NCBI RefSeq assembly: GCF_024323335.1
Contig: NC_066585.1
Location: forward strand, 184,861,684 to 184,925,683
Origin: Lathyrus oleraceus
Lineage: Eukaryota > Streptophyta > Magnoliopsida > Fabales > Fabaceae
Direction of reading: 5' to 3'
Length of the DNA stretch: 64,000 nucleotides
In this document: one piece after another, positions 7,178 to 54,383 of the stretch
Position numbering within the stretch: position 1 is the first letter of the stretch
How the letters are laid out: every line of letters begins with the position of its first letter
Translations under genes and position numbers: made by a program
The notes under the pieces: model-generated
The model's database searches: none
Told to the model about the DNA's origin: nothing
Seen by the model: the letters and a program-made list of their open reading frames with translations, nothing else

Positions 7178-7198
7178 GGATCCCCAGCAGAGTCGCCA
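7178..7198 (-). other. Primer binding site (tRNA-Arg type) of the Tat/Ogre element
   Basis: The minus strand reads TGGCGACTCTGCTGGGGATC, starting four bases after the LTR end. It matches the 3' end of a plant tRNA-Arg (…CCAGAGTCG+CCA) with about one mismatch by recall. Ogre elements are known to use tRNA-Arg. The first ten bases also recur inside the LTR at 7266-7275. Confidence 0.85.
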
Positions 7199-9096: not shown

Positions 9097-10260
9097 TGTT
9101 AGGGACCAATTTGTACTACTTTTTATACCTTTTTATTGGTCCCTTTTACCAAGTTTTGATGTAATTACACACTTTTATCTTCATTAATTTGTATAAATGC
9201 AATTAGGTTTAATTTATTTTGTTTTGAATAGTTATTTCACATTTTTGTTAGTTGTGTAGAATTTTGGATAAGCAAGACCTTGGTTTCAACATGGCATTTT
9301 GGAGGAAGCTTGCCAAACAAGGAAGCTGGGAAAGCTACAGTTCGCGCCGCGAACTCCCTTCGCGCCGCGAAGGCTGCGAATCCAGCAAGCTGACCAAGGG
9401 TCAAATGTGCTGCTGTGCAGAAAAAGTAATTGCCATTTTGATGTCTGCCTGGAAAGTGCTTTTCTGCTGCTGATGACAATGTCCAAATGGGGAAATGTCA
9501 ACCTTTTTGGTAGAGACAAAATAGTTTAACCTAGGGTATTGAGACATTATTCCATTGATTCACACATTGGTGCTGTAGAGCTTTTGTAATAGAGAAAAAC
9601 CAGAGTTTTCTTCTAAATCTTTCTGCTTTGTAACAATGGTGATGAGGAGCTAAACTCCCTTTTGTCAAGATTGGAGGTAGTAGCTATTCTCATCTATCTA
9701 TGTATTCACTTTGATTTATATATGAGATAAAGATTGTTGATGTATTGGAACTGTTTTTGCTTTACTTTGAAAACCAGATTTGAGTAGTTGTCGAGAGAGA
9801 TTACTCGAGTTTAGACATAAAACAGATTTTCAAGTAATGAATAAGTTGTAGAGATAGATTTATTCATTACTATTCTTGGATATTGAACATTCAAGGTTAC
9901 TATATTGATAGTTAGGTGGAGAGATCGTCTAAGGATCAATATAGTAACTATCACGATATCATTTAGACATAAATGACTTTGAGAGGATATTTGAACATCA
10001 TCAATAATCTTGAATCTAATTATGTATCATAGGGAATCATAGATATTTGAAATAGTGAACTCCAATCTTGCCAAGCTTTTATATTTGTCTAAAACCACTT
10101 AATAGTTTATGTTAAAATTGATTAACAAGATATTTTTCCAAACAAAACAAACCTGTTACTTTCTAAACTTAAAACATTTGAATTATCGAACGGCGGTAAT
10201 ATCACCTAATCTCTGTGGATACGATACAAAAATATTTGCCAAAGATATACTCTTTCAACA
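9097..10260 (+). repeat. 5' LTR of the plus-strand Athila element
   Basis: Starts TGTTAGGGACC and ends CTTTCAACA. It is followed after AAT by the PBS. It contains a pair of the palindrome TTCGCGCCGCGAA (9341-9353 and 9359-9371). The short frames within it recur at +10,334 because they lie in both LTRs; they are not genes. Confidence 0.95.
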
Positions 10261-10263
10261 AAT

Positions 10264-10281
10264 TGGCGCCGTTGCCGGGGA
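10264..10281 (+). other. Primer binding site (tRNA-Asp) of the Athila element
   Basis: TGGCGCCGTTGCCGGGGA begins three bases after the 5' LTR. It is the exact complement of the 3' end of plant tRNA-Asp, the primer known for Athila/Calypso elements. Confidence 0.93.
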
Positions 10282-10392
10282 TTGGTGTCGATATTACAAG
10301 CATTGCAATAATTCTTTGTTTTTAAGTTTGTTACATTTACTGTTATTCCTCTTTTGTTTCACTTGGTTTGTTAGTTTTGTAGATTCTAGTGC

Positions 10393-11625
10393 ATGCGAGG
10401 AAAAGTAACCGAGGAGCAACTTCAATTCGATCCTGAAATTGAAAGAACACTTCGGAAGCTCAATAGCAAAACACGAAGAAGAAGGAAACTAGCCGAAGAG
10501 AGGAACCGGAGAGAAGAAGCATCTACTTCCGCACTTGTTCCAATCGAAGAAGTGGTTGTAGAAGCTTGTGAAGGAAACATGGCGGAGGATAATCGTACTG
10601 AAATGTCCGCTAATAGTCCAAGAAGGAATGCTCAATTTGCCCGTGGAGGAAGAAATACGGAGATGAAGACCGGAATCCTCCAACTTCTCTATGCAACTCC
10701 ATTCACCGGAATGGATCACGAAGATCCGTATACCCATCTCATCAAATTCTATGAGATTGCGGGTTCTACGGGAATAGACGAGGCGGGTGAAGAGACGTTA
10801 TTCAAGAGGATGTTCCCACACTCATTAGTGGGAAAAGCAAAGGAGTGGTACCTTGATCAAGAATCAAGAGTGATGACGGATTGGAATCTATTAGAAGAAA
10901 AGTTCTTAGAAAGATACTTCCCTCAATCCCGATTCATGGAAGCCAAGACGGCTATAGCTGTATTTACTCAAGGAGGAAACGAATCTCTAAATGAAGCTTG
11001 GGAGAGATTCAAATCAATGTTGAGGAAGTGTAAGGGACATGGTTTTGATGAGCTTACTCAAATCCACATCTTTTTGAATGGTCTCCAATCAACCCATAAG
11101 ACACTTCTGGACGCCACCGCGGGTGGTTCGCTTATATCAAAAACTGCGGAGGAAGCTAAAGTCATTATTGAACGGATGGCCCGTAATGATCATCAAGGTC
11201 AACATGATCGTAGCCCTTCACAACGTAAGCCCGGAGTTTTGGAGTTGAATACCAATGATGCCATCCTTGCACAGAATAAGCTACTCTCTCAGCAAGTGGA
11301 GCTTCTTACTCAACAAATGGCCAAGCTTCCACAGCAAATAAAAGAGATTCAAGGTTTTCAAGTTCAGCATCAAGTCGCATGTTGTGAGTTGTGTCAAGGG
11401 GATCATCCTACTGGTTTTTGTCCTCCACCTCAAGAAGAAGTCAGTTATGTGAACAACCAAAACCAGGGATATCAAAGACAACAGCCTAACAATCAAGGCT
11501 ATCAACCAAGAAACAATCAAGGGTATCAACCGTCAAGGTTCAACAATCAGAATTATCAACAGCAAAGCCCTTACCAACAACCAAACTCTCAAGGTCAGCA
11601 GTCGCAAGAGGAAATTCCAAGCTAG
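10393..11625 (+). CDS. gag: Athila gag protein (410 aa, 3' end out of frame with pol)
   Basis: Structural protein that forms the virus-like particle of the retrotransposon. It has a basic N-terminus (TRRRRKLAEERNRREE), a retrotransposon gag domain at about residues 95-260 (FKRMFPHSLVGKAKEWYL, LEEKFLERYFPQSRF, LNEAWERFKSMLRKC), and a zinc-knuckle-like CELCQGDHPTGFC near 335-347. A long Gln/Asn/Tyr-rich tail follows (NQGYQPRNNQGYQPSRFNN). The start is the first ATG after the leader, at the same place as in the second copy. Compared with the second copy, one G is missing near 11608, so this frame closes at 11623-11625 while the pol frame continues on the other side. In related Athila elements gag and pol form one frame. 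Confidence 0.93.
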   Translation: MRGKVTEEQLQFDPEIERTLRKLNSKTRRRRKLAEERNRREEASTSALVPIEEVVVEACEGNMAEDNRTEMSANSPRRNAQFARGGRNTEMKTGILQLLYATPFTGMDHEDPYTHLIKFYEIAGSTGIDEAGEETLFKRMFPHSLVGKAKEWYLDQESRVMTDWNLLEEKFLERYFPQSRFMEAKTAIAVFTQGGNESLNEAWERFKSMLRKCKGHGFDELTQIHIFLNGLQSTHKTLLDATAGGSLISKTAEEAKVIIERMARNDHQGQHDRSPSQRKPGVLELNTNDAILAQNKLLSQQVELLTQQMAKLPQQIKEIQGFQVQHQVACCELCQGDHPTGFCPPPQEEVSYVNNQNQGYQRQQPNNQGYQPRNNQGYQPSRFNNQNYQQQSPYQQPNSQGQQSQEEIPS

Positions 11626-11645
11626 AAGACACTCTTCAACAATTC

Positions 11646-14600
11646 ATGCAAGCTTCTATGGCAAATCAGAAAAGTAACGAGGCGGCAATAAAAAATCTGG
11701 AAAATCAAGTAGGCCAACTCGCGAAGCAGCTGTCGGAACAAAATGCAGGGCCTTCTTTTTCTGCTAACACTCAACCAAATCCAAAGGAGCATTGCAAAGC
11801 AGTTGTCACAAGGAGCGGTAAAGCGTTGGTAAGTGAAAAAGGTAAAGAAATTGTAGAAGAGAACACCACTGAGGGGATTCTGGAAGAAACAGATATAGTT
11901 GGTGAGAGAAAAAATGATTCTGGAAATGCTCAGTTCGCGCCGCGAACCACCTTCGCGCCGCGAAAAGAGCAGGTTCTGCCCACTGCTGTACAGACTGATT
12001 GTGAGGAGAAAAAAGATGCTGAATCGAAGAAAAAGAAGAAATCTGAGAAGGGAGTGAATGTCATCCCAACTCAACATCTACCCTACCCACATGCTCCATC
12101 AAGGAAAGACAATGCTAGGCACTATGCACGATTCATGGACATTTTCAAGCAACTCCAAATCAACATTCCATTTTCTGATGCACTAGAACAAATGCCACGA
12201 TATGCTAAATTTATGAAAGACATTCTTACCAAGAAAAGGCGACATGTGGAAGATGAGACCATCATTCTTGATGCACGGTGTAGCGCAATCATTCAGAAGA
12301 CTTTACCTCGGAAGGAGTCCGACCCGGGACGGGTTGTTCTACCGGTAACCATTGGAAGCACATACGTTGGGAATGGTTTGATAGATTTGGGCTCTAGTAT
12401 AAATTTAATTCCCCTTTCTATTGTCAAACGATTGGGAAATGTGGAGATTAAATCAACAAGAATGACCTTACAACTAGCAGACAAGTCTACAACCTCACCA
12501 TACGGAATTGCCCAAGACATGCTCGTAAAAGTGGACAAATTTCTATTTCCTGTGGATTTTGTAATAGTAGAGATGGATGAGGACCGCGATGTACCCCTAA
12601 TCCTTGGAAGACCTTTTATGAAGACCGCTCGAATGATGATCGACATAGATGATGGGCTTATGAAGGTTAGAGTGCAAGATGAAGAGGTGACTTTTAACCT
12701 TTTCGAAGCAATGAAACATCCAACTGACAAGCATGATTCTTTTCGAATTGATGCAAGTGAAGAGGAAGTAGTGGAGGTCGTGAATCAAATCCATATTTCT
12801 AACCCTTTGGAAAGATCCCTTATTGGAGCATACAATGTGTTAACTGACAATGAGGAACGAGAGATCGAAGCGATGTTGCGTGAGTTAGAATCTTGTGGTG
12901 AACTGGCCTATCAAGAAGAATTAGTGGAAGATTTGAATGCAAAGAAGGAAACTGAAGAGCAAAAGTTAGAATTGAAGATGCTTCCGTCGCATTTGAAGTA
13001 TGTGTTTCTTGGAGATGAGTGTACCAAACCGGTGATTATAAGCAACACATTGTCCACGCAGGAGGAAGATAAGTTGATTCGAGTTTTGAAAAAGAACCAA
13101 GGTGCGATAGGGTGGGTTTTATCCGATTTGAAGGGTATTAGTCCAGCATATTGCATGCACAAGATAATGATGGAGGAAAACTTCAAACCGGTTGCACAAC
13201 CTCAGAGGCGTTTGAATCCATCAATGAAAGAGGTGGTTCGGAAAGAAGTTGTTAAACTTTTAGAAGCAGGAATGATTTATCCCATATCTGATAGTGCATG
13301 GGTGAGTCCGGTACAAGTGGTCCCCAAGAAAGGTGGAATGACGGTGATTAAAAACGATAAAAACGAGTTGATTCCGACGAGAACAGTGACAGGGTGGAGG
13401 ATGTGCATCGATTATAGAAGGTTGAACCAAGCCACAAGAAAAGATCATTTCCCACTACCTTTCATGGATCAAATGTTGGAGCGGCTCGCCGGCAAAAACT
13501 TCTACTGTTTCTTGGACGGATATTCGGGGTATAATCAAATTTCAGTAAATCCGGCAGACCATGAGAAAACAGCTTTTACATGTCCCTTCGGCATTTTTGC
13601 TTACCGAAGAATGCCTTTTGGATTATGTAACGCACCGGCCACGTTTCAACGGTGTATGCAAGCTATCTTTTCAGACCTGATAGAAGAATGCATCGAGGTG
13701 TTCATGGACGATTTTTCTGTTTATGGATCATCTTTTGAAGTGTGTTTGAAGCATCTTGATGTAGTTATAGAGAGATGCGTGGAGACCAACCTAGTGCTCA
13801 ACTGGGAAAAATGCAATTTTATGGTAACTGAGGGTATAGTGCTTGGTCACAAGATTTCTTCTGAAGGGCTAGAGGTGGACAAGGCCAAGGTGGAAATTAT
13901 TGAAAAGCTGCCACCTCCAACCAACATCAAAGGAATAAGAAGCTTTCTAGGACATGCCGGTTTCTACCGGAGATTCATACAAGACTTCTCAAAGATCGCA
14001 AAGCCACTGAGTAATTTACTCAACAAAGGTACGCCTTTTCTTTTTGATGAGTCATGTCTTAAAGCCTTCTTAGATTTGAAACAAAAGTTGATCACCGCAC
14101 CAATAATCGTAGCACCAAACTGGAATCTTGATTTTGAACTCATGTGTGATGCTAGCGATTATGCAGTGGGTGCGGTGTTAGGACAAAGAAGCGATAAAGT
14201 TTTCCATGCCATACACTATGCTAGTAAGGTGTTGAATGACGCCCAAGTTAATTACGCAACAACTGAAAAAGAATTGCTAGCCATAGTATATGCATTGGAA
14301 AAATTTAGAGCTTATTTGATTGGTTCAAGAGTTGTAATTTACACTGACCATTCTGCAATCAAATATCTGCTTACCAAGCCGGATTCAAAACAAAGGCTTA
14401 TTCGTTGGATCCTTTTATTACAAGAGTTTGATCTAGAGATTAGGGATAAAAAAGGTTCCGAGAACTTGGTAGCAGATCATCTGTCTCGATTGGTCAATGT
14501 AGAAATTACAAACAAAGAAGAAGAGGTGAGAGAAGAATTTCCAGATGAAAAACTCTATGCGATTCAAGTGAGGCCTTGGTTTGCTGATTTTGCTAACTAC

Positions 14601-15863
14601 AAAGCAACTGGTTTAACACCGGAAGACCTCACTTGCAATCAAAGAAGGAAATTCTTAGCTGATGCAAAATATTATGTCTGGGATGATCCTTATCTTTTTA
14701 AAGTGGGGGCAGACAATATTTTGAGAAGGTGTGTAACAATGGAGGAATCAAGAGACATTCTGTGGCACTGTCACAACTCTCCGTATGGAGGTCACTATAG
14801 TGGTTTGAGAACAGCCACTAAAGTACTCCAATCGGGTTTTTATTGGCCATCTTTATTCAAAGATGCGCACGAACATGCGAAGAGTTGTGATGCATGTCAA
14901 CGGAGTGGCGGAATAGGAAAACGGGATGAAATGCCTCTAACCAACATGCTAGAAGTAGAAGTTTTTGACTGTTGGGGTATTGATTTCGTTGGCCCATTCC
15001 CCTCTTCTTTCTCTAATGAGTACATTTTAGTTGCTGTCGATTATGTTTCGAAGTGGGTGGAAGCAAGTGCCTCACCCAAGGCCGATGCCAAAACCGTGAT
15101 CAAATTTTTAAAGAAGAACATATTTTCACGTTTTGGTGTGCCTCGAGTGTTGGTGAGTGATGGAGGCTCACACTTCTGCAATACACCATTAGAAAAAGTT
15201 TTGCAACATTATGGTGTAAAGCATAAAGTGACCACTCCCTACCACCCACAAGCGAACGGTCAAACTGAGGTTTCAAACCGGGAAATCAAACGGATACTTG
15301 AGAAAACAGTTTCGAACTCAAGAAAGGATTGGTCTTTAAAACTTGATGAGGCTTTGTGGGCATATCGCACTGCTTACAAAGCACCTATTGGGCTGACTCC
15401 GTTTCAACTGGTGTATGGGAAGACTTGTCATCTTCCAGTTGAAATGGAACATAGAGCATTATGGGCTCTTAAGTTCTTGAACTTCGATTCCACTCTAGCT
15501 GGAGAGAGAAGGAAAGGTCAACTCCATGAGTTGGAGGAACTAAGGAACAATGCATACCATTCTAATAAGCTGTACAAGGAGAAGACAAAAGCATACCATG
15601 ATGGGAAGGTCCGCCCCAAAGAGTTTCATGTGGGCCAGATGGTATTGCTTTTTAATTCAAGGTTGAAGTTGTTTCCGGGTAAATTGAAGTCTAAATGGTC
15701 TGGACCATTTGTGATCAAGGAAGTACGGAATTATGGAGCCATTGTGATAGAGGATCCAAAGTCGCAAGAAAGCTGGACTGTCAATGGTCAAAGACTGAAA
15801 GTCTATCATAGCGGTGACATAAACCGTGATGTGTGTGTCCTTTCCTTATCTGGATCAAGCTAA
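11646..15863 (+). CDS. pol: Athila pol polyprotein: protease, RT, RNase H, integrase (1405 aa)
   Basis: Domains in order: aspartic protease at about 230-330 (LIDLGSSINLIP, the DxGxS-type active site); reverse transcriptase at about 520-720 with MCIDYRRLN and catalytic VFMDDF near 687-690; RNase H from about 830 (LMCDASDYAVGAVLG, TTEKELLAIVYALEKF, YTDHSAIKYL); integrase zinc finger near 1040-1085 (HCHNS…CDACQR) and DDE core with WGIDFVGPF, LVSDGGSHF and GQTEVSNRE. The C-terminal part ends …VYHSGDINRD. No internal stop is seen, so pol looks able to encode active enzymes. The N-terminal linker carries an in-frame pair of the palindrome TTCGCGCCGCGAA (11934-11964), read as FAPRTTFAPRK. The true beginning lies upstream in the same frame as the gag tail. 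Confidence 0.95.
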   Translation: MQASMANQKSNEAAIKNLENQVGQLAKQLSEQNAGPSFSANTQPNPKEHCKAVVTRSGKALVSEKGKEIVEENTTEGILEETDIVGERKNDSGNAQFAPRTTFAPRKEQVLPTAVQTDCEEKKDAESKKKKKSEKGVNVIPTQHLPYPHAPSRKDNARHYARFMDIFKQLQINIPFSDALEQMPRYAKFMKDILTKKRRHVEDETIILDARCSAIIQKTLPRKESDPGRVVLPVTIGSTYVGNGLIDLGSSINLIPLSIVKRLGNVEIKSTRMTLQLADKSTTSPYGIAQDMLVKVDKFLFPVDFVIVEMDEDRDVPLILGRPFMKTARMMIDIDDGLMKVRVQDEEVTFNLFEAMKHPTDKHDSFRIDASEEEVVEVVNQIHISNPLERSLIGAYNVLTDNEEREIEAMLRELESCGELAYQEELVEDLNAKKETEEQKLELKMLPSHLKYVFLGDECTKPVIISNTLSTQEEDKLIRVLKKNQGAIGWVLSDLKGISPAYCMHKIMMEENFKPVAQPQRRLNPSMKEVVRKEVVKLLEAGMIYPISDSAWVSPVQVVPKKGGMTVIKNDKNELIPTRTVTGWRMCIDYRRLNQATRKDHFPLPFMDQMLERLAGKNFYCFLDGYSGYNQISVNPADHEKTAFTCPFGIFAYRRMPFGLCNAPATFQRCMQAIFSDLIEECIEVFMDDFSVYGSSFEVCLKHLDVVIERCVETNLVLNWEKCNFMVTEGIVLGHKISSEGLEVDKAKVEIIEKLPPPTNIKGIRSFLGHAGFYRRFIQDFSKIAKPLSNLLNKGTPFLFDESCLKAFLDLKQKLITAPIIVAPNWNLDFELMCDASDYAVGAVLGQRSDKVFHAIHYASKVLNDAQVNYATTEKELLAIVYALEKFRAYLIGSRVVIYTDHSAIKYLLTKPDSKQRLIRWILLLQEFDLEIRDKKGSENLVADHLSRLVNVEITNKEEEVREEFPDEKLYAIQVRPWFADFANYKATGLTPEDLTCNQRRKFLADAKYYVWDDPYLFKVGADNILRRCVTMEESRDILWHCHNSPYGGHYSGLRTATKVLQSGFYWPSLFKDAHEHAKSCDACQRSGGIGKRDEMPLTNMLEVEVFDCWGIDFVGPFPSSFSNEYILVAVDYVSKWVEASASPKADAKTVIKFLKKNIFSRFGVPRVLVSDGGSHFCNTPLEKVLQHYGVKHKVTTPYHPQANGQTEVSNREIKRILEKTVSNSRKDWSLKLDEALWAYRTAYKAPIGLTPFQLVYGKTCHLPVEMEHRALWALKFLNFDSTLAGERRKGQLHELEELRNNAYHSNKLYKEKTKAYHDGKVRPKEFHVGQMVLLFNSRLKLFPGKLKSKWSGPFVIKEVRNYGAIVIEDPKSQESWTVNGQRLKVYHSGDINRDVCVLSLSGSS

Positions 15864-16372
15864 TTGAGGTACCGTTGAGCTCCTAACGACGTTAAACAAA
15901 GCGCTGGTTGGGAGGCAACCCAACGTTGTTTGTGTGCAATTTAAATTTCTCTGTTGTGTGATTCTTAGCTTTGATTGAAGTTTTAAAAAATTTTTTTTTT
16001 GAAGTTCTGTTTTTTGCAGTTCGCGCCGCGATCTCCTGTTCGCGCCGCGAACTGAATGAAAAAATTTGAGTGCTTTCTGTTTTTTGCAGTTCGCGCCGCG
16101 ACCCCCTGTTCGCGCCGCGAACTGAATGAAAAAATTTTAATTGGTTCTGTTTTCTGCAGTTCGCGCCGCGACCCCCTGTTCGCGCCGCGAACTTTGCGTG
16201 ACAGAATTCATTTAAATACTGTTTAGGTCAATTCAGTTTCATTTCAAACTTCCTCTTTTCAAACCCTTTTGCCGCGCTTTCATCCCAACCCCCAAATTCC
16301 ACCATTTCTCAACGTTTTTCAGTATTTCACTCTTCCAATCTTCTTCTTTCTGCAAGTGTAGAGATTCTAAAG
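15864..16372 (+). other. Post-pol spacer with three 70-bp repeats carrying paired GC palindromes; leader of ORF3
   Basis: After pol there are three tandem 70-bp units; the landmark TCGCGCCGCG falls at 16021, 16091 and 16161. Each unit carries two copies of the TTCGCGCCGCGA motif about 19 bases apart. A TTTAAATACT box (16210) and a pyrimidine-rich stretch (16236-16350) follow, resembling a plant promoter and 5' UTR. It ends in a splice-donor-like AAAG|GTATGTAAT at 16373. Confidence 0.75.
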
Positions 16373-16710
16373 GTATGTAATCTTCATTTCCTCTTTTCCA
16401 ATCCCTTTTTGGGGTTTTTCAATTTAGGGTTGGTTAGAGATGTATTTTTCTGTGAATGCTGTTTGGAATTGCTATGCTTGTGTGAAATAGAATAGGATTA
16501 GGTTAGGGTTATGCATTTTGACTGTTTGGGTATGTTAAATCCCTCTTTGGTGAAACCCTAGAAAGCAATTGAGGATTTCCTGAAATCGCAGGGTTCGCGC
16601 CGCGAACCTCCCTTCGCGCCGCGAACTGTGAATTCCAGCAGCCATTTTCTTTTTGATTATTGACTAATGCTATAATGTTTGTTTTGTGGTTGTGCTGGTT
16701 TTGATTGCAG
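16373..16710 (+). other. Putative intron directly before ORF3 of the Athila element
   Basis: The donor AAAG|GTATGTAAT (16373) and the acceptor TTTTGATTGCAG (ending 16710) are strong plant splice sites. The ORF3 start codon follows the acceptor with no gap. The decayed minus-strand copy has matching sites (45725-46047; AAAG|GTATGTG and TTTTGTTGCAG before its ATG). The intron therefore appears conserved between copies that otherwise differ a lot. Confidence 0.65.
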
Positions 16711-17913
16711 ATGTCTAAGAGAACTAAGACCACAGCACCTCCTCAGGCCCGTGCGCCCCGAAGGTTCATCAGTGAGGAGCACGAAGCACGCTTTGAGAGT
16801 CTTGTCAAGAGGACTATTCTACCGGAAAGGTTTATCCGCCTGGCTCCAACTGGAGTGTATCACAAAGTGGTTGAGGTTTTCGAGCAAAGAAAATGGATGA
16901 AGTTGTGTGAGCCGGAAGCCGCAATCAACTACGACCTTGTCCGAGAATTCTACGCGAATGCGATGCATCGTGAGGAAGGTACGACCTTCATTCACCAGTC
17001 CAGGGTAAGGGGAAAGATTGTGTCATTTGGAAGGGATGACATCAATTCTTATCTAGGTCATCCCTTAACTCTTGGAGAGGGGGAGAGTTGTGAGTACAAT
17101 ACCATGGTAGCAGCTGACAGATGGAACCTGGAAGCAGTCAATGCCACCCTTTGTCTCAGAGGAAAATCTTTTGAAGTGAATGACCAAGGGCATCCGAAAT
17201 TGTGGAAGAGGGAAAATTTCAATTTGGAAGCTAGAGCTTTGTTGGTGCTACTGTTAACCAATATCAGACCAAGAAGCCACACCACCACAATTCCTATGGA
17301 TGTCGGGTGTCTCTTGTACTGCATCATGATCGGGAAGACGGTGGATGTTGCAGCCCTCATTTCATGCGAGATGAGAAAGATTGTGTTAAGTGGAACAAAT
17401 TTCGGGGGCAAAGCTGGTGTGCTAGCTTATCCAGGACTCATCATGGGATTGTGCCGTAGGGCCAATGTTCACATTCCTGAGGAAGTGCACTACTCGATCA
17501 CCAGTGTGATCAGTGACGCTTATTTGAACAGGTTTCTGCAGAACCCGAATGAGAAGACTGATGCATCTGGTACTTCTTCCTCTCGGTCCCGAGCCAGGTC
17601 CCGTTCTCAACCTCAACCTCAGAGTACCCCAGGTTTTGATCAGATGGCTTTTGCCAACTACTGCTGTGAGAACTTTGAGGCCTCCAGGAGGTCTCAATCA
17701 TTTCTTTTTGATGCCATGCAGCAGCAGTTCCAGAACACGTTTCTGGCACCAGAGGCCCGTACTTTTCCATCGCAAGCTGACTATGCAGCTTATGCTGATT
17801 GGCCTGTGGGCAGGCCAAATTTTATGGGGGGTGCAGGAGGTAGTGCTGACCCAAATGAGGAGATGGAAGATGTTCTTGGAGGTGTAGGTGGTGATGAAGA
17901 GGAAGAGAATTGA
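16711..17913 (+). CDS. Athila third ORF (env-position 'putative plant transposon protein'; 400 aa)
   Basis: This ORF lies after pol, where Athila/Calypso elements carry an extra gene, sometimes called env-like. The protein starts MSKRTKTT and has a conserved globular part (RFESLVKRTILPERFI, INYDLVREFYANAM, FGRDDINSYLGHPL, RSHTTTIPMDVGCLLYCIM, GLCRRANVHIPEE). A Ser/Arg-rich stretch (SSSRSRARSRSQ) and an acidic end (NEEMEDVLGGVGGDEEEEN) follow. I see no signal peptide or convincing transmembrane segment, so an envelope role is not supported by the sequence. It resembles the family labelled 'putative plant transposon protein' in plant annotations. An ATG six bases earlier (16705) lies inside the intron acceptor, so I chose 16711. 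Function is unknown. Confidence 0.85.
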   Translation: MSKRTKTTAPPQARAPRRFISEEHEARFESLVKRTILPERFIRLAPTGVYHKVVEVFEQRKWMKLCEPEAAINYDLVREFYANAMHREEGTTFIHQSRVRGKIVSFGRDDINSYLGHPLTLGEGESCEYNTMVAADRWNLEAVNATLCLRGKSFEVNDQGHPKLWKRENFNLEARALLVLLLTNIRPRSHTTTIPMDVGCLLYCIMIGKTVDVAALISCEMRKIVLSGTNFGGKAGVLAYPGLIMGLCRRANVHIPEEVHYSITSVISDAYLNRFLQNPNEKTDASGTSSSRSRARSRSQPQPQSTPGFDQMAFANYCCENFEASRRSQSFLFDAMQQQFQNTFLAPEARTFPSQADYAAYADWPVGRPNFMGGAGGSADPNEEMEDVLGGVGGDEEEEN

Positions 17914-18854
17914 ATTTGTGGAGTTTTGAAGAGAATTGTTTGTTTGAATTTCGTTTGACTAATTCTGTTTTTGTTTTGGGAATTTTGTAATGTACTTTTT
18001 GGTGGCTCTAGTTCACCGTGACTTTATCTTAGCACTTTAATTTTTCTTTAGTCTTTTTATAATTGCATGAGTACCTTGTGAAATTTAAGTGTGTTTTTAA
18101 TCAAATTGGTTTACCAACAGCTCTAGTTAATTGTTCTTACGCTTAAGTCAAGCCTAAAGCAACCAAGAGTTGTTCGCAAAGAAAGAAGCATAGGATACTT
18201 CGAGTGGTGATGATAAGAATTAGTGTCGGCAATTTCAAGGTACACTTTATCGCTTTCTAGACTTAACATGAGTAGGTTGATGTTGTGTGCAAATTCCATT
18301 TCATAAATTCATTGAAGTATATGTCAGTTTTGAATCAAAATAGGACTTAACCATTTGTGAGGAAACTTTCCATTGTGCACTAAAAAAGCGGGAAACCGAG
18401 CATTATTTTGACTCATTCTTATCATGCTAAATCATGCATCAATCTAATGTTGTGTGAAATTTTTGAAAATGATAGAGGCAATTTTTGTGAGAAAAACCAC
18501 TTGACCAAAAAGCTTAAATCAACGAACCTTGTGAGGAGTAATCCTTAGTTAACCCCCTTTGAGCTTGTTAGGATTCATTTGATTGATCATTGTAAAATCA
18601 ATTGAAAATTGTGGAATAAATGAATCCTAATTTCTTTCGTATCAGTTGAAACCTCAAACCGAGTTGTTTGCAAAAATTTTGCCTTTTGCTTATTCTTAAG
18701 TAGGGAGCATTATTGAATAAATCGGTTGTGGAATCTAAAGTTGGGGAGAGTAAAGTGAAGAGTTGATAGGGAACTTGGAATAGTGAGTTTCTTTGGAAGG
18801 GTAAGAATATGAAAAGAAACAAGAAAAAGAAATCACCCTTGAAACCATAGAGCA

Positions 18855-18891
<37 letters not shown>

Positions 18892-19420
18892 ATATGCTCA
18901 TGGTTGTGTGGATTTGAAAAGAAAAGATAGGAACCAAGGAAAAGGAAATTGGTAGAGTTGAATCTTTGGGAATGCTCCCTTAGGATAGGCAACCTTTTTG
19001 AATTCTCTTAATCATATCCTTTCTTGCAACCTAAGCCAAATTACAACCTTTGAAAGACCTCTTGATTCTCATTTTTCACATGATTTGGTACTTGTTGTGA
19101 TAGCCGCATGATTCGATTTGTTGTTGATTTAACTGCTTGGATGAGTGAAAGTAACCCTTCATGTTATTCATCAACATTGATGTGTGCGTAAGTTTGATTC
19201 AATTTTGACATGTATAGCTTTGAGATACTTGGAATGATTTTTGCACTTTACCATTTCCCTTATTCATGTTTGTCTAGAATTGAGAGAGGTGAATTGAGAA
19301 GAGGCCAAACACTTTTGAACCATTTGAATGTCCTTGATAAATGCTTGTTTAAATCTTTTGTGTCATGATCTTGGTTGTGAGGGTGGAAACTTTTGTTTAG
19401 GGACAAACAAAATGCTAAGT
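17914..19420 (+). other. Long 3' untranslated region of the Athila element
   Basis: No coding frame is visible in about 1.5 kb. It contains a run of about 31 A's (18859-18889). This run is flanked by an inverted repeat of about 14 bp (CCATAGAGCATATAA before, TTATATGCTCATGG after). The corresponding region of the second copy is 43040-44541, reversed. The polypurine tract follows. Confidence 0.8.
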
Positions 19421-19430
19421 TGGGGAGAGT
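19421..19430 (+). other. Polypurine tract of the plus-strand Athila element
   Basis: TGGGGAGAGT lies directly before the 3' LTR start TGTTAGGGACC. The minus-strand copy has the same tract (AAGTTGGGGAGAGT, 43040-43053 reversed) before its own 3' LTR. Confidence 0.85.
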
Positions 19431-20594
19431 TGTTAGGGACCAATTTGTACTACTTTTTATACCTTTTTATTGGTCCCTTTTACCAAGTTTTGATGTAATT
19501 ACACACTTTTATCTTCATTAATTTGTATAAATGCAATTAGGTTTAATTTATTTTGTTTTGAATAGTTATTTCACATTTTTGTTAGTTGTGTAGAATTTTG
19601 GATAAGCAAGACCTTGGTTTCAACATGGCATTTTGGAGGAAGCTTGCCAAACAAGGAAGCTGGGAAAGCTACAGTTCGCGCCGCGAACTCCCTTCGCGCC
19701 GCGAAGGCTGCGAATCCAGCAAGCTGACCAAGGGTCAAATGTGCTGCTGTGCAGAAAAAGTAATTGCCATTTTGATGTCTGCCTGGAAAGTGCTTTTCTG
19801 CTGCTGATGACAATGTCCAAATGGGGAAATGTCAACCTTTTTGGTAGAGACAAAATAGTTTAACCTAGGGTATTGAGACATTATTCCATTGATTCACACA
19901 TTGGTGCTGTAGAGCTTTTGTAATAGAGAAAAACCAGAGTTTTCTTCTAAATCTTTCTGCTTTGTAACAATGGTGATGAGGAGCTAAACTCCCTTTTGTC
20001 AAGATTGGAGGTAGTAGCTATTCTCATCTATCTATGTATTCACTTTGATTTATATATGAGATAAAGATTGTTGATGTATTGGAACTGTTTTTGCTTTACT
20101 TTGAAAACCAGATTTGAGTAGTTGTCGAGAGAGATTACTCGAGTTTAGACATAAAACAGATTTTCAAGTAATGAATAAGTTGTAGAGATAGATTTATTCA
20201 TTACTATTCTTGGATATTGAACATTCAAGGTTACTATATTGATAGTTAGGTGGAGAGATCGTCTAAGGATCAATATAGTAACTATCACGATATCATTTAG
20301 ACATAAATGACTTTGAGAGGATATTTGAACATCATCAATAATCTTGAATCTAATTATGTATCATAGGGAATCATAGATATTTGAAATAGTGAACTCCAAT
20401 CTTGCCAAGCTTTTATATTTGTCTAAAACCACTTAATAGTTTATGTTAAAATTGATTAACAAGATATTTTTCCAAACAAAACAAACCTGTTACTTTCTAA
20501 ACTTAAAACATTTGAATTATCGAACGGCGGTAATATCACCTAATCTCTGTGGATACGATACAAAAATATTTGCCAAAGATATACTCTTTCAACA
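19431..20594 (+). repeat. 3' LTR of the plus-strand Athila element
   Basis: Same 1,164 bp as 9097-10260, offset exactly 10,334, with no difference seen. It is followed by GTATG, the second half of the target duplication, and then ACA, the last bases of the interrupted Tat LTR. Confidence 0.95.
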
Positions 20595-20602
20595 GTATGA
20601 CA

Positions 20603-21960
20603 CTTGTGTTTGTTTATCTTTGTCCCCTGTACATATCAAAGACCTCCTAAGTGAAGAGGCATTGGCAGATCCAAGAGATGTGTAGTCCATCTCCTGCTAA
20701 TCAGTGAGTCATCCACTTTGCTCACGCACCTTGTGTTGATGCATTGTGGATATTAACCCAAGATCTTTGTTGAGTCAGTCATATGTGGATAGAAGAGTTC
20801 CAACTTTCTAGACTCCCACAATCTCATCTGTCTGAAGCTCTCCCTGGCCAGGGATAAGAGCTGTGAAGTCTTATCTTCACTTCCTATTTCGTCTGCTTCA
20901 CCCTAACTCTCAATGTTAGGGTTAAGAGCTAACATCACCCCGATACAGTGGTTTGTTTGTTGAGGTTGATATGACCCCTCAACTAAAACCTAGCCTTGTT
21001 TGAGCCCCTCTGTCTGTATATAGTGTGTGTGCTTGCTTTGTGCTTCTGTATGACTGTTTGTGCTGTTTAAGATAGCTTGCTTCCTGTGCGAGTAGATAGA
21101 AACCTTAACATAGGGCAATGATGCATGACAACTTCTAGGCTCGAGTCGTAGTCTCCCTAGTAGTTTGTGTCTCCCTTTGTATCTGGTTAAGCTAGTTTCT
21201 TTCCCTGTTAAGGGGAACTACGTCACCCTGATCCTCATACAAGATGAGGTACGTAGGCAGGAGATCGTACGAGATCTCTCAGGGCACCCTTTTTCTTTTT
21301 TTGTGTGTGTTTGCTTGACCTCTAGCAGGCTCGAGTACCAGACTCCCTGTTAGCTTGTTTGGTCAACTCTTTGTTGCTTTTGACGACTCAGCGTCCGGTT
21401 AACTTCTTGTTTGTGTGGAGTCTGACGTAAGTCCAGCGATTGGCAGTCGGTTTCCTGTGTTTGTTTGTGTGCTTGGAGTCTGACGTAAGTCCAGCGATTG
21501 GCAGTCGGTTTCCTGTTTGTGTTTATGTGTTTGTTTTGACGTCTCAGCGTCTGGGCGTGTGTTTTGTTTCGGCGTGCGTGAGCCAAACTATGGTAGCTCT
21601 GATTCTCATTCCATATGAGATACGTAGGCATAGGATGCGATGTCCTAGCGAGCCCGTTCCCCCCTTTATTCCATCTGTGTTGTATTCCAGTGTGTGTGCA
21701 TGTTTGTGAGCAGTTTTCTTTTAGAAACCTCATTCTATTTCTTTTGAGCGTGGATCCCGTCGAGTACGACGGACGTGAGGGGTGCTAATACCTTCCCCTT
21801 GCGTAACCGACTCCCGATCCCATCTCTCTTTGGTCGCGAGACCATGTCTTTTCCAGGTTTACTTCGAGCGTTTCCTTTCCCTCGTTTGGGATAAATAACG
21901 CACGGTGGCGACTCTGTTTGTTTTAGTTTTTCCCGCCGGTTGTTTTTCGCGGATGCGACA
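20603..21960 (+). mobile_element. 3' part of a plus-strand Ogre LTR, cut by the minus-strand Tat element
   Basis: This stretch has the standard end of an Ogre LTR: TACGTAGGCA with a stem-loop (21246 and 21609), the 48-nt double hairpin (21757-21804), the PBS-like TGGCGACTCTG (21906-21916) and the terminal GCGGATGCGACA (ends 21960). A 58-bp tandem duplication (AGTCTGACGTAAGTCC at 21419 and 21477) lies inside. Its start is missing because the minus-strand Tat element inserted at 20602/20603; the rest should lie left of the window. It is followed not by a PBS but directly by the 177-bp repeats, so it is the right end of an element or solo LTR inserted into that array. Confidence 0.8.
21757..21804 (+). 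other. 48-nt double-hairpin module, LTR copy 2
   Basis: CCGTCG-AGTA-CGACGG (21757-21772), then directly ACGTGAGGGG, the loop TGCTAATACCTT, and CCCCTTGCGT (21773-21804). The first stem is perfect. The second pairs over ten positions with two G-U pairs. Confidence 0.85.
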
Positions 21961-23500
21961 ATACTGCTCTAAGTATCCTCGAAGAGTCTTATATTCAATT
22001 AAGGTATTTTTCCCTTGCTGGAATATCTTAATTCTATCATATAAGACGCTCTTTCGACTCGATATAGAGAATCTCACATCTACTGTTTGAGATGCTGCTT
22101 CATCAATATGAAGAGTCTCATTTCAGATTTTTTAGAGATACTGCTCTAAGTATCCTCGAAGAGTCTTAGATTCAATTAAGGTATTTTTCCCTTGCTGGAA
22201 TATCTTAATTATATCATATAAGATGTTGTTTCGACTCGATACAGAGAATCTCACTTCTACTGTTTGAGATGCTGCTTTGTCAATATGAAGAGTCTCATTT
22301 CCTATTTTTTTAGAGATACTGCTCTAAGTATCCTCGAAGAGTCTTAGATTGAATTAAGGTATTTTTCCCTTGCTGGAATATCTTAATTCTATCATATAAG
22401 ATGTTGTTTCGACCCGATACAGAGAATCTAATTTTTACTGTTTGAGATGCTGCTTCATCAATATGAAGAGTCTCATTTCAGATTTTTTAGAGATACTGCT
22501 ATAAGTATCCTCGAAGAGTCTTAGATTCAATTAAGGTATTTTTCCCTTGCTGGAATATCTTAATTCTATCATATAAGATGCTGTTTCGACTCGATACAAA
22601 GAATCTCATTTCTACTGTTTGAGATGCTGCTTCATCAATATGAAGAGTCTAATTTCAGATTTTTTAGAGATACTGCTCTAAGTATCCTCGAAGAGTATTA
22701 TATTCAATTAAGGTATTTTTCCCTTGCTGGAATATCTTAATTCTATCATATAAGATGCTCTTTCGACTCGATACAGAGAATCTCACTTCTACTGTTTGAG
22801 ATGCTGCTTCATCAATATGAAGAGTCTCATTTCAGATTTTTTAGAGATACTGCTCTAAGTATCCTCGAAGAGTCTTAGATTCAATTAAGGTATTTTTCCC
22901 TTGCTGGAATATCTTAATTATATCATATAAGATGTTGTTTCGACTCGATACAGAGAATCTGACTTCTACTGTTTGAGATGCTGCTTTGTCAATATGAAGA
23001 GTCTCATTTCCTATTTTTTTAGAGATACTGCTCTAAGTATCCTCAAAGAGTCTTAGATTGAATTAAGGTATTTTTCCCTTGCTGGAATATCTTAATTCTA
23101 TCATATAAGATGTTGTTTCGACCCGATACAGAGAATCTCATTTTTACTGTTTGAGATGCTGCTTCATCAATATGAAGAGTCTCATTTCATATTTTTTTAG
23201 AGATACTGCTCTAATATCCTCGGAGATTCTTAGATTCAATTAAGGTATTTTTTCCCTTGCTGGAATATCTTAATTCTATCATATAAGATGATGTTTCGAC
23301 TCGATACAGAGAATCTCACTTTTACTGTTTGAGATGTTGCTTCATCAAAATGAAGAGTCTCATGCCAGATTTCCTGTATACTATTCTAACATCCTGGAAA
23401 AGTCTTAAGATTTAGCTAGGGATGTCATTCCATTACTAACATATCTCGACTGTGATGTCCAAGATATTGTTCTGGCGACTCCTAGAAAGTCTTGTATGTT
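21961..23500 (+). repeat. 177-bp tandem array in the 3' UTR of an Ogre element (about 8 copies)
   Basis: GAGATACTGCTCTAAG-type landmarks recur at 22135, 22313, 22490 and 22667, a period of 177-178 bp. The last copy (23370-23500) is very degenerate. The array stops about 170 bp before an Ogre polypurine tract and LTR, so it is the 3' UTR repeat of that element. The same monomer forms the large array from 54384 on. Confidence 0.93.
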
Positions 23501-26340: not shown

Positions 26341-29300
26341 ATACTTGTCACACCCCAAAATTTGCCCTCCTTTTCGCTTTTTCATCGGACTATAACTTGA
26401 TATCCATCTAGCCTCATTCATACTCATTCATGTGCATTCAAACATTCATAATTAACATCAACTCATAGGTGTCACGGATTCAGGGTTTGTGGTTGATAAA
26501 ATCGGGGTTTTGGATTTGAGTTTATGGCATTATACATCATATGGATCAAAATCCTAATTCTTGACTTTGATAGTCAAAGATCTTTTGTAGCATTTTCTTT
26601 TAACTTCATTAGTGGGCCATTTTATTCAAATCATCCTTAAGCCCATTTAACCATAAATCTAAGCCATCCCAATATCCAATTCCTTATCCATTATTACCAC
26701 TCCAAATCCATTCAAAAATCCAAATCCTTTTCATTTTATAAACCAAATTTGCAATTATCCACATTTTATATTCATTTACATATCCATAAAAAAGGGCAAT
26801 GTAAAAAGCATGGTACGTAATGCTACATTCTCATACACTTCATTCCATTAATATTTATATATCATGAGCACATTTTTACATGTTAAAGCCAAGCATGTTT
26901 CCATGAGCATAGTGTCGACATATTTGTTACACAGCTTATATACTAACCTTTTATTACAAGCATTTCACCATTGTATACATATATCACAAAGAGAGCCAGT
27001 TACAATCAGAATGGAAAAGAGGGAGAGTCTTGGTATGCCTCATGATTCTATACTTCACGCTTCCACTTGCCGTGCATTTTCTAACCAAAAAGCTGCTACC
27101 AAGCAAATACCACGGCAATCACAATATAAACCAACTGCGGCATGAAACATAAGCCACGCTGGAACCAACGACAACGCCGACAACAGACCGCAACAGCAAC
27201 TGAACACAACAGTCTCACAAATGCATACCAACTGCAAGCCACAATGATGTAGTGAGAGCCAACGGCAACACCGACAACGAAACTCAATCAAAAGCTATAA
27301 GTCACCATCGGCTGCAACAGAACCGCAAATGGTAAGTCCAAAACAACATTCTGCATCAAATCAAGGTCATAATTAGAAGTAAATATCCTCATTGCCAAGC
27401 CTGTCAAAATCAAAAACCTGAAATGTATCATGGATTAGCAACAATGTGTCAAAACCTACAATGCAAAATCCACAATTGGGTTGCACCCTGTTGGCATACT
27501 AAACTGTTTCAAATTAAAGTCAAACAAAGCAGTTTTGCAACATGAAGCAAACCAAAACCATAGCATGGATCTCACATCAATTCATACATCAACCAAGCAC
27601 CCTACTGCAACTTTGGAGCTACCTGCAAAAGAGGACCAAGATGATTCTAATGACTACATCGGCAAAATCCATAACAATCGGCAATGCAAGGCAAGAAATG
27701 GAATTTGAGTCATAATCATGGTAACTACCCTGCTGTGGAACCAAAGCCAAGAAAACCTGCAAAAACAGGGCAAGTTATCTGAGCATACCAACACAGACTT
27801 ACAATCCAAAAAATAGTTCGATTCAAATCATTGAGTTTCAAAACAATAAGAAGTTCAGGAAATTAAGGGATCCAAGCCAGTTTGGTTCAAGGCAAATATC
27901 CACAGTTGGGACTTCAGTGAACAAGTCAAGGAGTGAAGCGTGCCATTCAATATTCTAAATCCCACATGACTTAATTCATGATGTAAAAACTCACCTTCTC
28001 ATTCACTTAAATGCCAGCTGGATGATGTAGATTGAACCATTCAGACTTAATTCTCCAATTTGCCCTTGGATCGTGCTATATAAGTGGCAATCATTGTCAA
28101 TCATTGGGTTCAGACTTTTTTCCCTCATTCCAAAAGCTTTTTCACTCAATTCCCATCTTCAGTACACGCTATTTTTTCCATTGTTGTGAGAGCTTCAGCA
28201 CTCGAAGCTCTACACGACAGAGTTAAGCCGCCACCACCACCGGAAGCTTCGAAGCTCGCAGATCATTATCGCTCACACGCTTCCAGCTCGCTCCAACACT
28301 GTGAGAAGAGGAAGAGAGACGCTCAGAAGCTGTGCGTGTTCGTCATCATCGTCGCCATGAGGATGTATTGGATAGTAGAAGTTGTCACCATTGCGTAATC
28401 GTTTGTGAAGTTCTGGTATAATCTCCATTATAGAACCAATTGCATTTCTGCTTGTGGATAAGCTTTGTGAATAAGCGCGTTTGGTAAGCGCATTTCCGTT
28501 TGTGTTTTCTTGTTTTGCTGCCTGCTTACAGTAGCCTTGTAGAGGCTTCGATAGGGCCTATGGTACTTCACAAACACACCCCGTTTTTCAGCTTGCACTC
28601 TCCCGTGGCCCATTCTGCACTTTGAAAACTCATATACCTTGCTTTATAGCTAGTTAGTTTAGATTAATTAGGATTAGACTTAGGATTAGTTGTTAATTAG
28701 GATTAATCTTAAGAAGTGTTAATTGGTTAGTAAAAATAATTAGGACTAATGGTGTTTAGAATTGAATTTAGGAGTTAATTTTGTTTAGAATTTAATTAGA
28801 TTTGATTTCTAGAATTGACTTGGTAATTGTTTTAGAATTTGTTTTTGTTAATTGATGATTCAATTTTGGAATTGATTTGGTATTTGTTTTAGAATTCAAT
28901 TTTGTTAACTGTTTGGAATTAATTGTTGATAATCGTTTAGAAATTGAATTTTGTTAAATATTCTTTTATCATTTCTATTTGATCTAACATCTAACATTAA
29001 TTTCTAACACCTAATTCTTTTACTTTTTGCACCTAACTTTAATTTTCGTACGTTGACTTCTAACACTTTACAATTTCGTACCTAACTTTTAAATTTCGCA
29101 TCTAACTCCTAACATTTATTTTTGCCAAATTTACTTTACAATTGCTTTTATTTGCTTTACATTCCATATTGTACATATTCATATCATACTAAAATGAACA
29201 TAAAAAAGGCAAAGACTTAAAAAATACAAAAAACAAGATAATTTCCCAAGCATGGTGAGGACTTTGGACAATGGACTTAGAGACTCATTAGGACCCTTTG

Positions 29301-30337
29301 CAAAAGAGACTTTGGACTAATGTGATCTACCATGGAAGAATGCAAGTATCAAGGAGAATTTGTAATATCAATTGTAATCTTTTACTTGTTTTCCCCATCT
29401 AGAACACAATTGCACACACATGGCTTTCTCTTGGGCTACCTGACAATGAGACCTTTTATTTCCGCACCCCCTTGTATTTTACATGTACCCCTCTCCCCAT
29501 TCCGATGTATGCTTTTACTCGCTTTCTTTTATTGCTTGTTAGCTACTCCTTAGGCATTAGGAACGTTCACCCATTCAAAACCGATAATCAAACCCTTGAT
29601 CCAACGTCAAGCGGTCTTTTCCAAATCAAATTCAATAAACAAACCCTTGATCCAATGCCAAGAGGTTGTTTCCAAATCAAAAATCCAAAAAACACAATAA
29701 ATGGCGATTAGGATCGTACATCACGAGCCTTAAGCGATAAAGAAGGGATGAGACTGGAGCTTTCCTACACTCATTCTGAATGCTTCGAACACAAGATGTT
29801 TGGCTTGACCGTTTATGGTATTCACCTTTATCCATAGTCTTTAGTGCAATCCGAAACCAATAACACTTTCTCAAAACTTAAAAACAATTCCACGCATTCA
29901 AACCTTTTGTTTGAGCCTTAGGGCGACACATTCGAAAACCCTTCTTCAAGGTAATAAAATCAACAAAACAAACACAAACAAATTTCAAATCCACGAACTA
30001 CGAACGCTCTGATTTCTCACTTCAACAAGTGGGCATACGTAGGCACGAGGATCCATTCCTTGGGGAGCACACTAATTTAAAATCTACCTCCATCTCCTCA
30101 ATCCTTTAGCAAGCAACATTTGATAAACAATACACACGTAAGCGCAAACATCCTAGATGGTTCCCATGGAGTACCATGGATGTGAGGGGTGCTAATACCT
30201 TCCCCTTGCATAACCGACTTTCGAACCTGTTCGTGGTTGCGACGATCATATTTTTGGGTTTTCTCGATATTTTCCCTTTCCTTTGGAATAAATAAAAACC
30301 GATGGCGACTCTGTATTTTTCGCGTAGCGACAATACT
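26341..30337 (+). mobile_element. Solo LTR of a second Ogre-type element (3,987 bp) with target duplication ATACT
   Basis: The LTR proper is 26346-30332, beginning TGTCACACCCCAAAATTTGC and ending TTCGCGTAGCGACA. ATACT stands directly before (26341-26345) and after (30333-30337), a 5-bp target duplication, with no internal region between. This is the expected product of recombination between the two LTRs of a full element. Inside are AT-rich degenerate repeats of a TTTAGAATT phrase (28640-29000) and the usual hairpins near the end. It inserted into the older Ogre LTR 23669-32574. Confidence 0.88.
30164..30211 (+). other. 48-nt double-hairpin module, LTR copy 3
   Basis: CCATGG-AGTA-CCATGG (30164-30179), then ATGTGAGGGG, the loop TGCTAATACCTT, and CCCCTTGCAT (30180-30211). 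Compared with copy 2, the second stem pair C-G is T-A, a compensatory change. Confidence 0.85.
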
Positions 30338-31127: not shown

Positions 31128-31930
31128 TTTGGAAATGAAAAGGGGGATGGTTTTGAGTTTTCAACTCCTCTCCTCGATTATTTGAATAACGAGTTCTCTT
31201 ACTCGGTTAGTCAAATAGTCGTCATTTTTATCCTCCTAAACACAATTAAAACGAATCATTCTTGTAATGACGAAATGAAAAGGGAGATGGTTTTAAGCCT
31301 TTAACTCCTCTCCTCGATTGTTTGAATACAAGTTTTCTTACTCGGTCAGTTAGACAATCGTCATTTCTTTACGAACCTTAAACCAAGATTAAATCAAATT
31401 ATTTTCATACTAACGAAATGAAAAAGGGAGATGATTTTGAGCCTTCAACTTCTCTCCTCAATTGATTGAATACGAGTTATCTTACTCGGTTAGTCAAACA
31501 ATTGCCATTTTCCCACAAACTTGTGACTTAATCAAATCATTTTCACAGTAAACTATATGAAAAGGGAGATGGTCTTGAGTCTTCAATTCCTCTCCTCAAA
31601 TGCTTGGACATGAGTTGTCTTACTTAGTCATTCGAGCATTTGTCGTTTATTCTAAAGTACATCAACCATATACGACCTTATTTTCATAAATACTCAGATG
31701 AAACAAAAAGCGATCTATAGTCTTCTATTCCCTTTCCCGATTATTAAGGTACGAGTTGTCTTGCTCGATTACCCGAGTAATCATCATCCAGTCAAAATAC
31801 CTTAACTATTATCAAACCCTTTCTATAATTAAAGATGAAAAAGAAAGCGGTCTAGAGTCTTCTATTCCCTTTCCCGACTGTTAGGATACGAGTTGTCTTA
31901 CTCGACTATCCAAGTAATTGTCATCCAACC
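31128..31930 (+). repeat. Six degenerate ~140-bp repeats with long hairpin arms, inside the Ogre LTR
   Basis: Units start near 31130, 31270, 31412, 31555, 31697 and 31832 with GATGAAAAGGGAGATGG-like sequence. Each continues with CCTCTCCTCGATT and then a hairpin around TCTCTTACTCGG. The outer arms differ from copy to copy but remain nearly complementary (see findings). Confidence 0.82.
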
Positions 31931-32354
31931 AAAAACATCTCAACCAATCAAAACATCAAATATATTAATCTAACTTGTCACCCTCGTGTGATCAAAACTC
32001 TTTTCAGAAAGAACACCGTCTAATCCTTTCTAATGCGCACAACAAACTAGTGTTTAAGCCTCCGCCGAGAGTAGACAAGTCAGCGTTTAGCCTTTAGAAC
32101 GCGATCTAAGCAGTTGTTCACTAAAAGACATTAACCAACCGTAGTTCCCCGAACTACGAATGCTCTGATTTTCTTATTGCACCATAAGGATACGTAGGCA
32201 GGAGATTGTTGTATCTTCGCGAGCACACTAATAAAAAACCTCCTCTTTCCCTTTCTGAGGTTCTCATCCATTTCTATTTTTAATATTTCATAACCCAAAG
32301 ATAACAAACAAACATAAATTAACACTCGAAACGCAAATTAGAACTAAAAGGTTC

Positions 32355-32402
32355 TCGTTGAGTACAACGGACGTGAGGGGTGCTAATACCTTCCCCTTGC
32401 GT
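32355..32402 (+). other. 48-nt double-hairpin module, LTR copy 4
   Basis: TCGTTG-AGTA-CAACGG (one G-U at the base), then ACGTGAGGGG, the loop TGCTAATACCTT, and CCCCTTGCGT. Same geometry as the other copies. The first stem differs from copies 2 and 3 at several paired positions. Confidence 0.85.
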
Positions 32403-32574
32403 AATCAACTCCCGAACCCGAATACGGTTGCGACGACCATTATTCCATTTCCTAAAGGTTTTATCGATATTTTCCTATTCCTTCATTGGGATAAATAAAG
32501 TTCGGTGGCGACTCTGTTCGAACATAATTTTTTCCGCGACCATCGCGAGGAATCGTAATTTTCGAGATGCGACA

Positions 32575-32590
32575 AGTGTATTTCAATTAA

Positions 32591-32653
<63 letters not shown>

Positions 32654-49722: not shown

Positions 49723-49725
49723 ATT

Positions 49726-54006: not shown

Positions 54007-54383
<377 letters not shown>

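Follow-up and report, generated by a model that had tools for sequence, protein, structure and literature searches.

A covarying 48-nt double hairpin near the 3′ ends of five LTRs in a pea mobile-element cluster

Do the ends of LTRs in a pea mobile-element cluster carry an RNA structure that selection has maintained, and what might such a structure do? The window analyzed here, a stretch of 64,000 nt of Lathyrus oleraceus DNA, contains five copies of a 48-nt unit in which a first hairpin (6-bp stem and 4-nt loop) is followed with zero spacer by a second (10-bp stem and 12-nt loop). Four copies are on the plus strand: T21757 (21757-21804; hairpin 1 at 21757-21772 and hairpin 2 at 21773-21804), T30164 (30164-30211), T32355 (32355-32402), and T41014 (41014-41061, within a degraded LTR). 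The fifth and most divergent copy, A7405 (7358-7405, minus strand), lies in the 5′ LTR of a minus-strand retrotransposon that we call element A. The copies had been proposed in a sequence-only reading of the window, and on extraction their coordinates, their stems, the loop lengths of 4 and 12 nt, and the zero spacing were all exact. The constancy of lengths and spacing also held in every copy, including the one in the degraded LTR of T41014. The 12-nt loop, described as nearly constant, is TGCTAATACCTT in three of the five copies, TGCTAACACCTT in another, and TTCTAATATCTT in the last. The further claim that the LTRs otherwise share little does not hold for the four plus-strand LTRs, which can be aligned over 168-180 nt at 70-83% identity. 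As for the claim that every Tat/Ogre LTR has the unit, the LTRs seen amount to five 3′ ends in a single window, and four of these are close relatives.

A search of both strands of the window for the exact geometry, with G-U pairs allowed, returned only the five copies plus matches in two (TA)n tracts, one spanning 32594-32650 and the other 54041-54183. Dinucleotide shuffling of the whole window gave 2 geometry matches in total over 30 shuffles. The core of the unit was found with three or fewer mismatches in four of the five copies, the core of T41014 having more. When the five copies were used to train a covariance model, it retrieved them from the window at 81-102 bits; the next of the 17 matches listed scored 12.6 bits (E 0.11).

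All 80 stem cells of the five copies form standard pairs, compared with a mean of 90.5% in shuffles (0 of 500 shuffles as high). Stem bases change in pairs, as had been proposed: 6 of the 16 pairs (the third and fifth of hairpin 1; the second, third, seventh, and ninth of hairpin 2) have changes on both sides, a count reached in 1 of 500 shuffles, and none is broken. One-sided changes that preserve pairing account for another four pairs, and the other six are invariant. The covariation score was 0.50 (0 of 500 shuffles as high), against 0.27 for shuffles and at most 0.18 for structures slid out of register, which were 44-57% paired. The number of further pair types, alone among the five measures, did not rise above that of shuffles (11 observed and 11.3 shuffled; 387 of 500 as high).

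In a permutation analysis, the stem substitutions of each sequence were redistributed at random over the stems, with base types matched. The observed absence of broken pairs in all four other sequences was reached in 0 of 20,000 permutations for each of the five references; permuted substitutions broke 10.3-11.5 pairs on average and never fewer than 3, as summed over four sequences, a sum that counts changes common to relatives more than once. Permutation of single sequences gave 0 of 20,000 for A7405 against T32355 and was weak for near relatives, with P up to 0.30 for T21757 and T32355, which are only 3 bases apart. Swapping of 3′ strands between copies, a weaker form of evidence with five sequences, left pairing as good in 4 of 120 arrangements for hairpin 1 and in 2 of 120 for hairpin 2, the true arrangement included in each case.

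Two explanations would dispense with a selected RNA structure. In one, the appearance of covariation would arise from common ancestry together with C-to-T decay at symmetrical CpG sites. Of the six two-sided pairs, five are of the G-C/A-U or C-G/U-A kind favored by cytosine deamination, several pair changes are of the CpG type, four of the five copies are near relatives, and single-sequence P values reach 0.30. However, when the CpG context was held during permutation, zero broken pairs were never obtained (0 of 20,000 for each of the five references; minimum 2). Moreover, hairpin 1 pair 5, the only pair with transversions as well, is found as G-C, U-A, and C-G, and there is no A-C cell among the 80 stem cells. 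Decay of this kind is thus a very improbable source of the pattern. Scarcely credible is the other explanation, already disfavored, which has a short ORF on either strand impose a coding constraint in place of RNA structure. In all five copies, frame 0 is open over the 48 nt in both the sense and the antisense direction. However, several of the coupled changes would alter the amino acid encoded in sense frame 0 (Ser/Trp, Thr/Met, Arg/His, and His/Tyr), stops occur in that frame no more than 10 codons upstream in two copies, and a 79-amino acid ORF spanning one copy has no relative among 6 candidates.

G-U pairs are present in four copies (2, 2, 3, and 3, a total of 10) and absent from A7405. 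Because these pairs would be A-C in antisense RNA, the sense RNA is favored as the structured strand. Antisense folds, tried for two copies, kept hairpin 1 and interrupted the stem of hairpin 2. The data point to a structure of the sense-transcript RNA rather than to a DNA palindrome. Minimum-energy folds of 82 nt contained both hairpins in all five copies, with z-scores of -2.3 to -3.7. In contexts of ∼400 and ∼650 nt, the mean pair probability was at least 0.95 for 9 of the 10 hairpins, the exception being hairpin 1 of T32355 (0.63-0.71 in long context), and the 12-nt loop was unpaired with a probability of 0.91-0.98. The compensatory changes, the two permutation tests, the slid-structure controls, and the strand argument from G-U pairs together bear out the earlier proposal of a selected RNA structure, and we hold this conclusion with high confidence.

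A possible extension of the structure is an outer stem that would close a three-way junction. A 5-bp outer stem appears in the minimum-energy folds of three copies, where the junction has an 11-nt single strand. The putative junctions are at 21752-21820 in T21757 (GGATC at 21752-21756 with GATCC at 21816-21820; context probability 0-0.54), 30159-30227 in T30164 (GGTTC at 30159-30163 with GAACC at 30223-30227; 0.26-0.53), and 32350-32418 in T32355 (GGTTC at 32350-32354 with GAACC at 32414-32418; 0.07-0.11). Altogether 21 of 25 outer-stem cells are paired, with four of five pairs in T41014 and only two of five in A7405, the most divergent copy, in which the stem fails. We grade the outer stem as possible, and no higher, because its mean probability in the longer contexts ranges from 0 to 0.54. 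A possible interaction between the CGAACC strand and a tRNA T arm was considered and not kept; in T21757 the strand and its partner in the outer stem have changed together, so that the outer stem fits better than tRNA pairing. Helices also placed by RNAalifold within alignment columns 128-186 contained broken cells and were given no weight.

The element that owns an LTR could be characterized best for element A. Its 5′ LTR, minus the first three bases, which an insertion has split off, spans 7203-9096 on the minus strand, and 7853-9096 matches positions 1-1238 of the cut 3′ LTR at 96%. The LTR starts with TGTCATAC, as seen in the 3′ LTR, and ends with GTATGACA at 7203. The bases GAAC follow, and 4 nt past the LTR end is a tRNA-type primer-binding site (PBS)-like 18-mer, TGGCGACTCTGCTGGGGA (7181-7198, minus strand), putatively specific for tRNA-Arg. 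The hairpins are 160 nt upstream of this PBS. The motif TATAAATA at 8840-8833, ∼1.4 kb upstream of the hairpins, is likely to be the TATA box of element A, and with such a promoter the hairpins would be transcribed as part of the leader; the same LTR has two more TATAAA[A/T] matches. The other four LTRs, the starts of which are uncertain, yielded no TATAAA[A/T] in the segments assigned to them.

An ORF of element A at 3436-4407 (minus strand) matches a reverse transcriptase RNase H profile and has a partial, weak match to an integrase core. The 120 relatives listed, of 2047, include pea and faba bean proteins. PF13456 and PF00665, which we take to be the aRH and integrase of Tat, occur together in 10 of these 120 relatives. 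According to Neumann 2019 (PMC6317226), an aRH domain beside the integrase is the Tat/Ogre criterion. No aRH was found in the 7 of 14 pieces of element A that were scanned. The Tat/Ogre label given to all five LTRs by the sequence-only reading is supported for element A by plant integrase homology, and extends to the other four only by similarity of their LTR ends. The 3′ LTR of element A leaves the window, and the other four hairpin-bearing LTRs have no recognized adjoining internal region; no Pfam family was detected in 28084-28395 or 38437-38847, two pieces near the plus-strand LTRs. The insertion in the 5′ LTR of element A is a Ty3/gypsy element (9097-20594) with 100% identical LTRs and a GTATG duplication. 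A related element in the opposite orientation is found at 41848-50917, with LTRs that are 97.4% identical. The former carries a protease-reverse transcriptase-RNase H-integrase ORF and a Transposase_32 ORF, and the latter a Retrotrans_gag ORF. The LTR with copy T21757 has probably been interrupted in turn by element A.

Downstream of the hairpins each LTR has an AATAAA-like block followed by a PBS-like 10-mer. In the plus-strand LTRs these occupy 21888-21915 for T21757 (GGGATAAATAA block, with TGGCGACTCT at 21906-21915), 30285-30312 for T30164 (TGGCGACTCT at 30303-30312), 32488-32515 for T32355 (TGGCGACTCT at 32506-32515), and 41144-41171 for T41014 (TGGAGACTCT at 41162-41171). Near the end of the 5′ LTR of element A, at 7266-7293 on the minus strand, a GGATAAAAG block accompanies TGGCGACTCT at 7275-7266. 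The distance from block start to PBS-like motif is exactly 18 nt in all five LTRs. The motif matches the first 10 nt of the element A PBS at 9 or 10 of 10 positions, and that PBS is 77 nt beyond its PBS-like copy. The only other match to the 10-mer in the window with at most one mismatch, at 23473 (plus strand), is without the block surroundings. The four plus-strand LTRs agree at a mean identity of 83% over the hairpin block, against 30% immediately before it and 51% in the downstream tract; from the AATAAA-like block through the PBS-like motif the figure is 86.5%. As judged by eye, a T-rich tract precedes the AATAAA-like block.

As judged from LTR anatomy, the hairpins would belong to the R/U5 leader that is transcribed into the genomic RNA of Tat/Ogre elements and would come shortly before the probable poly(A) region. 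A poly(A) site downstream of the AATAAA-like block would put them in R and so at both RNA ends. A leader position, probably in R, would best suit genome recognition or the start of reverse transcription, then 3′-end formation, and then strand transfer. On balance we favor a selected cis-acting element of Tat/Ogre genomic RNA, most likely concerned with genome recognition or the start of reverse transcription. That the stems vary while the exposed 12-nt loop is near-constant suggests recognition in trans. We propose tentatively, and with much less assurance than for the selected structure itself, that this loop, displayed on a rigid stem, would be recognized by one of the element's own factors, either Gag/nucleocapsid or the reverse-transcription complex. 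Such binding would mark the genomic RNA for encapsidation and would assemble the initiation complex near the primer site.

Other functions could be served from the same position. In one, the hairpins, in R and upstream of the AATAAA-like signal, would help to specify or control where the transcript is cleaved and polyadenylated, a role active in the 3′ LTR and disregarded in the 5′ LTR. The AATAAA-like block begins 64-85 nt after hairpin 2 in all five LTRs; the well conserved stretch from this block to the PBS-like motif, coming after the T-rich tract, is also in keeping with 3′-end formation. However, the spacing between hairpin and signal is variable, and ordinary plant poly(A) sites have no known requirement for such a structure, so that we judge 3′-end formation to be rather unlikely. 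The occlusion form of a polyadenylation role, which the earlier suggestion would have allowed, is contradicted by the same distances, since a signal outside the hairpin leaves no simple poly(A) occlusion. A little less probable again is an aid to first-strand transfer, in which hairpins near the U5/R border would pause reverse transcriptase and let a short strong-stop DNA jump early. From the TATA-implied RNA start of element A to its hairpins is ∼1.4 kb, and copying all of R before transfer would thus be slow; the recovery of both hairpins in the minimum-energy fold of every copy agrees with a pausing role. Nevertheless, pausing needs stability only and not a near-constant 12-nt loop. Dimerization had also been suggested. 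The 16 nt of hairpin 1 in T41014 are perfectly palindromic, and two of the copies have CCATGG arms. As a kissing-loop initiation site, however, the unit is a poor candidate: by eye, the loop is palindromic in one of five copies of hairpin 1 (TATA) and in none of hairpin 2, and a self-complementary stem arm would be consumed first by intramolecular pairing. We consider this form of dimerization improbable.

The genome-recognition or reverse-transcription-start reading may involve more of the leader than the double hairpin. A second module, characterized by an invariant CTGAT, a TACGTAGGCA linker, and two hairpins of differing stems, is found upstream on the plus strand. It occurs twice in the LTR of T21757 (21206-21290, the upstream copy, and 21574-21652) and once in those of T30164 (29993-30069) and T32355 (32147-32226). 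The degraded LTR of T41014 has a TACGTAGGCA-like version with TACTTAAGCA (40840-40918). In each of these four LTRs, ∼95-130 nt separate the end of the module from the double hairpin downstream. Hand segmentation, which favors pairing, gave 30 of 30 pairs for each module hairpin; in a longer cut, hairpin A of the module at 29993 has 7 of 8 pairs. Strand swaps paired as well in 2 of 120 arrangements, the true one included. An upstream CTACG could pair with a CGTAG of the linker, possibly as a pseudoknot, and 24 of 25 such pairs can form. Single-sequence folds of the module were weak (z -0.4 to -2.0), and the degraded copy folded without hairpin A. Hairpin B accounts for most of what RNAalifold recovered, a result probably due to misalignment of hairpin A by MAFFT. 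On the minus strand of the window, and so in element A, there is no exact CGTAGGCA.

One could imagine the R/U5 leader as a hitherto undescribed composite RNA device in which this module, the double-hairpin three-way junction, and the rigid AATAAA-18 nt-PBS-copy block jointly signal encapsidation and the start of reverse transcription; the tRNA primer could then dock at a second site, the PBS copy in U5. We regard this as a doubtful proposal. If true, it would describe such a signal for a retrotransposon lineage that dominates Fabeae genomes; in Vicia faba, Ogre makes up 54% of the genome (PMC4659654).

Relatives of the double hairpin were sought in two sequence collections. A 16-nt loop-and-stem pattern matched 19 stretches in viral_contigs and 89 in genome_contigs, with no convincing relative; among the 107 matches with enough flank, the best agreed with a 65-nt majority string at 36 of 65 positions, 16 of them imposed by the pattern. 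The full PBS matched viral_contigs once (L109), with nothing LTR-like by eye in 801 bases, and the element A RNase H ORF found no locus in the same collection. When 18 of the 120 relatives were aligned, the pattern derived from them had 84 matches in viral_contigs, none of them confirmed. Two protein searches found no Tat element in viral_contigs, and genome_contigs was scanned with the pattern only. The hairpin loop sequence was not found in full-text literature, a coverage that mostly excludes subscription journals. The conserved strings TACGTAGGCA and GGTGGCGACTCTG do occur there, in no paper about LTRs as judged by title. Among the literature matches listed, no title or abstract start described this structure, and the words "hairpin" and "secondary structure" are absent from PMC12786077 and PMC7004042. 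Rfam contains no family matching the whole window at gathering score, nor any matching 20600-22000 at E up to 5.

The closest parallels are with the stem-loops of long retroviral R regions. The TAR and poly(A) hairpins of HIV-1 are likewise conserved stem-loops in the transcribed part of the LTR, and in HIV-1, too, two hairpins abut. Unlike those of HIV-1, the hairpins described here are ∼1.4 kb past the inferred RNA start in element A and not at the 5′ end, the AATAAA-like block is outside them, and the host element is a plant Ty3/gypsy retrotransposon. In Benachenhou 2013 (PMC3601003), residual conservation in long R regions is linked to stem-loops, and LTR length variation in plant Metaviridae is said to have prevented modeling. 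Conserved R-region stem-loops are known in retroviruses, and apparently none had previously been modeled in this plant lineage.

Among plant elements, Sirevirus motifs, according to the abstract of PMC2829016, are similarly conserved in divergent LTR retrotransposons and include an inverted repeat near an LTR junction. However, Sireviruses belong to Ty1/copia, their inverted repeat is located beside the junction of PPT and 3′ LTR, and the abstract does not describe an abutting hairpin pair. The dimerization and packaging signals of BARE are also plant LTR retrotransposon signals, thought to direct genomic RNA into particles; BARE is a Ty1/copia element, and the likeness is to the role proposed for its signals (PMC3735527). 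Hammerhead ribozymes in retrozyme LTRs (PMC4918200) are another structured RNA of plant retroelements, from which the present case differs in that the window has no Rfam match. The covariance model could be used to find Tat/Ogre LTR ends, and the hairpins offer a defined site at which packaging, priming, or 3′-end formation in plant gypsy elements could be examined.

The mobile-element cluster is flanked on both sides by an array of a 177-bp satellite (about 21960-23370 and 54407-63991), and the LTR of T21757 ends at the start of this array. Beyond the LTR of T41014, at 41190-41460 on the minus strand, the translation resembles by eye a copia-type zinc knuckle and protease, with no Pfam match. 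Upstream of the same copy, at 40384-40626, is a repeat pair 150 nt apart. Tandem repeats of ∼140 nt are present at 31132-31934 (plus strand), upstream in or near the LTR of T32355. Between LTR fragments at 33905-36346 (plus strand) is an open NB-ARC/LRR frame of the disease-resistance type, 814 codons long.
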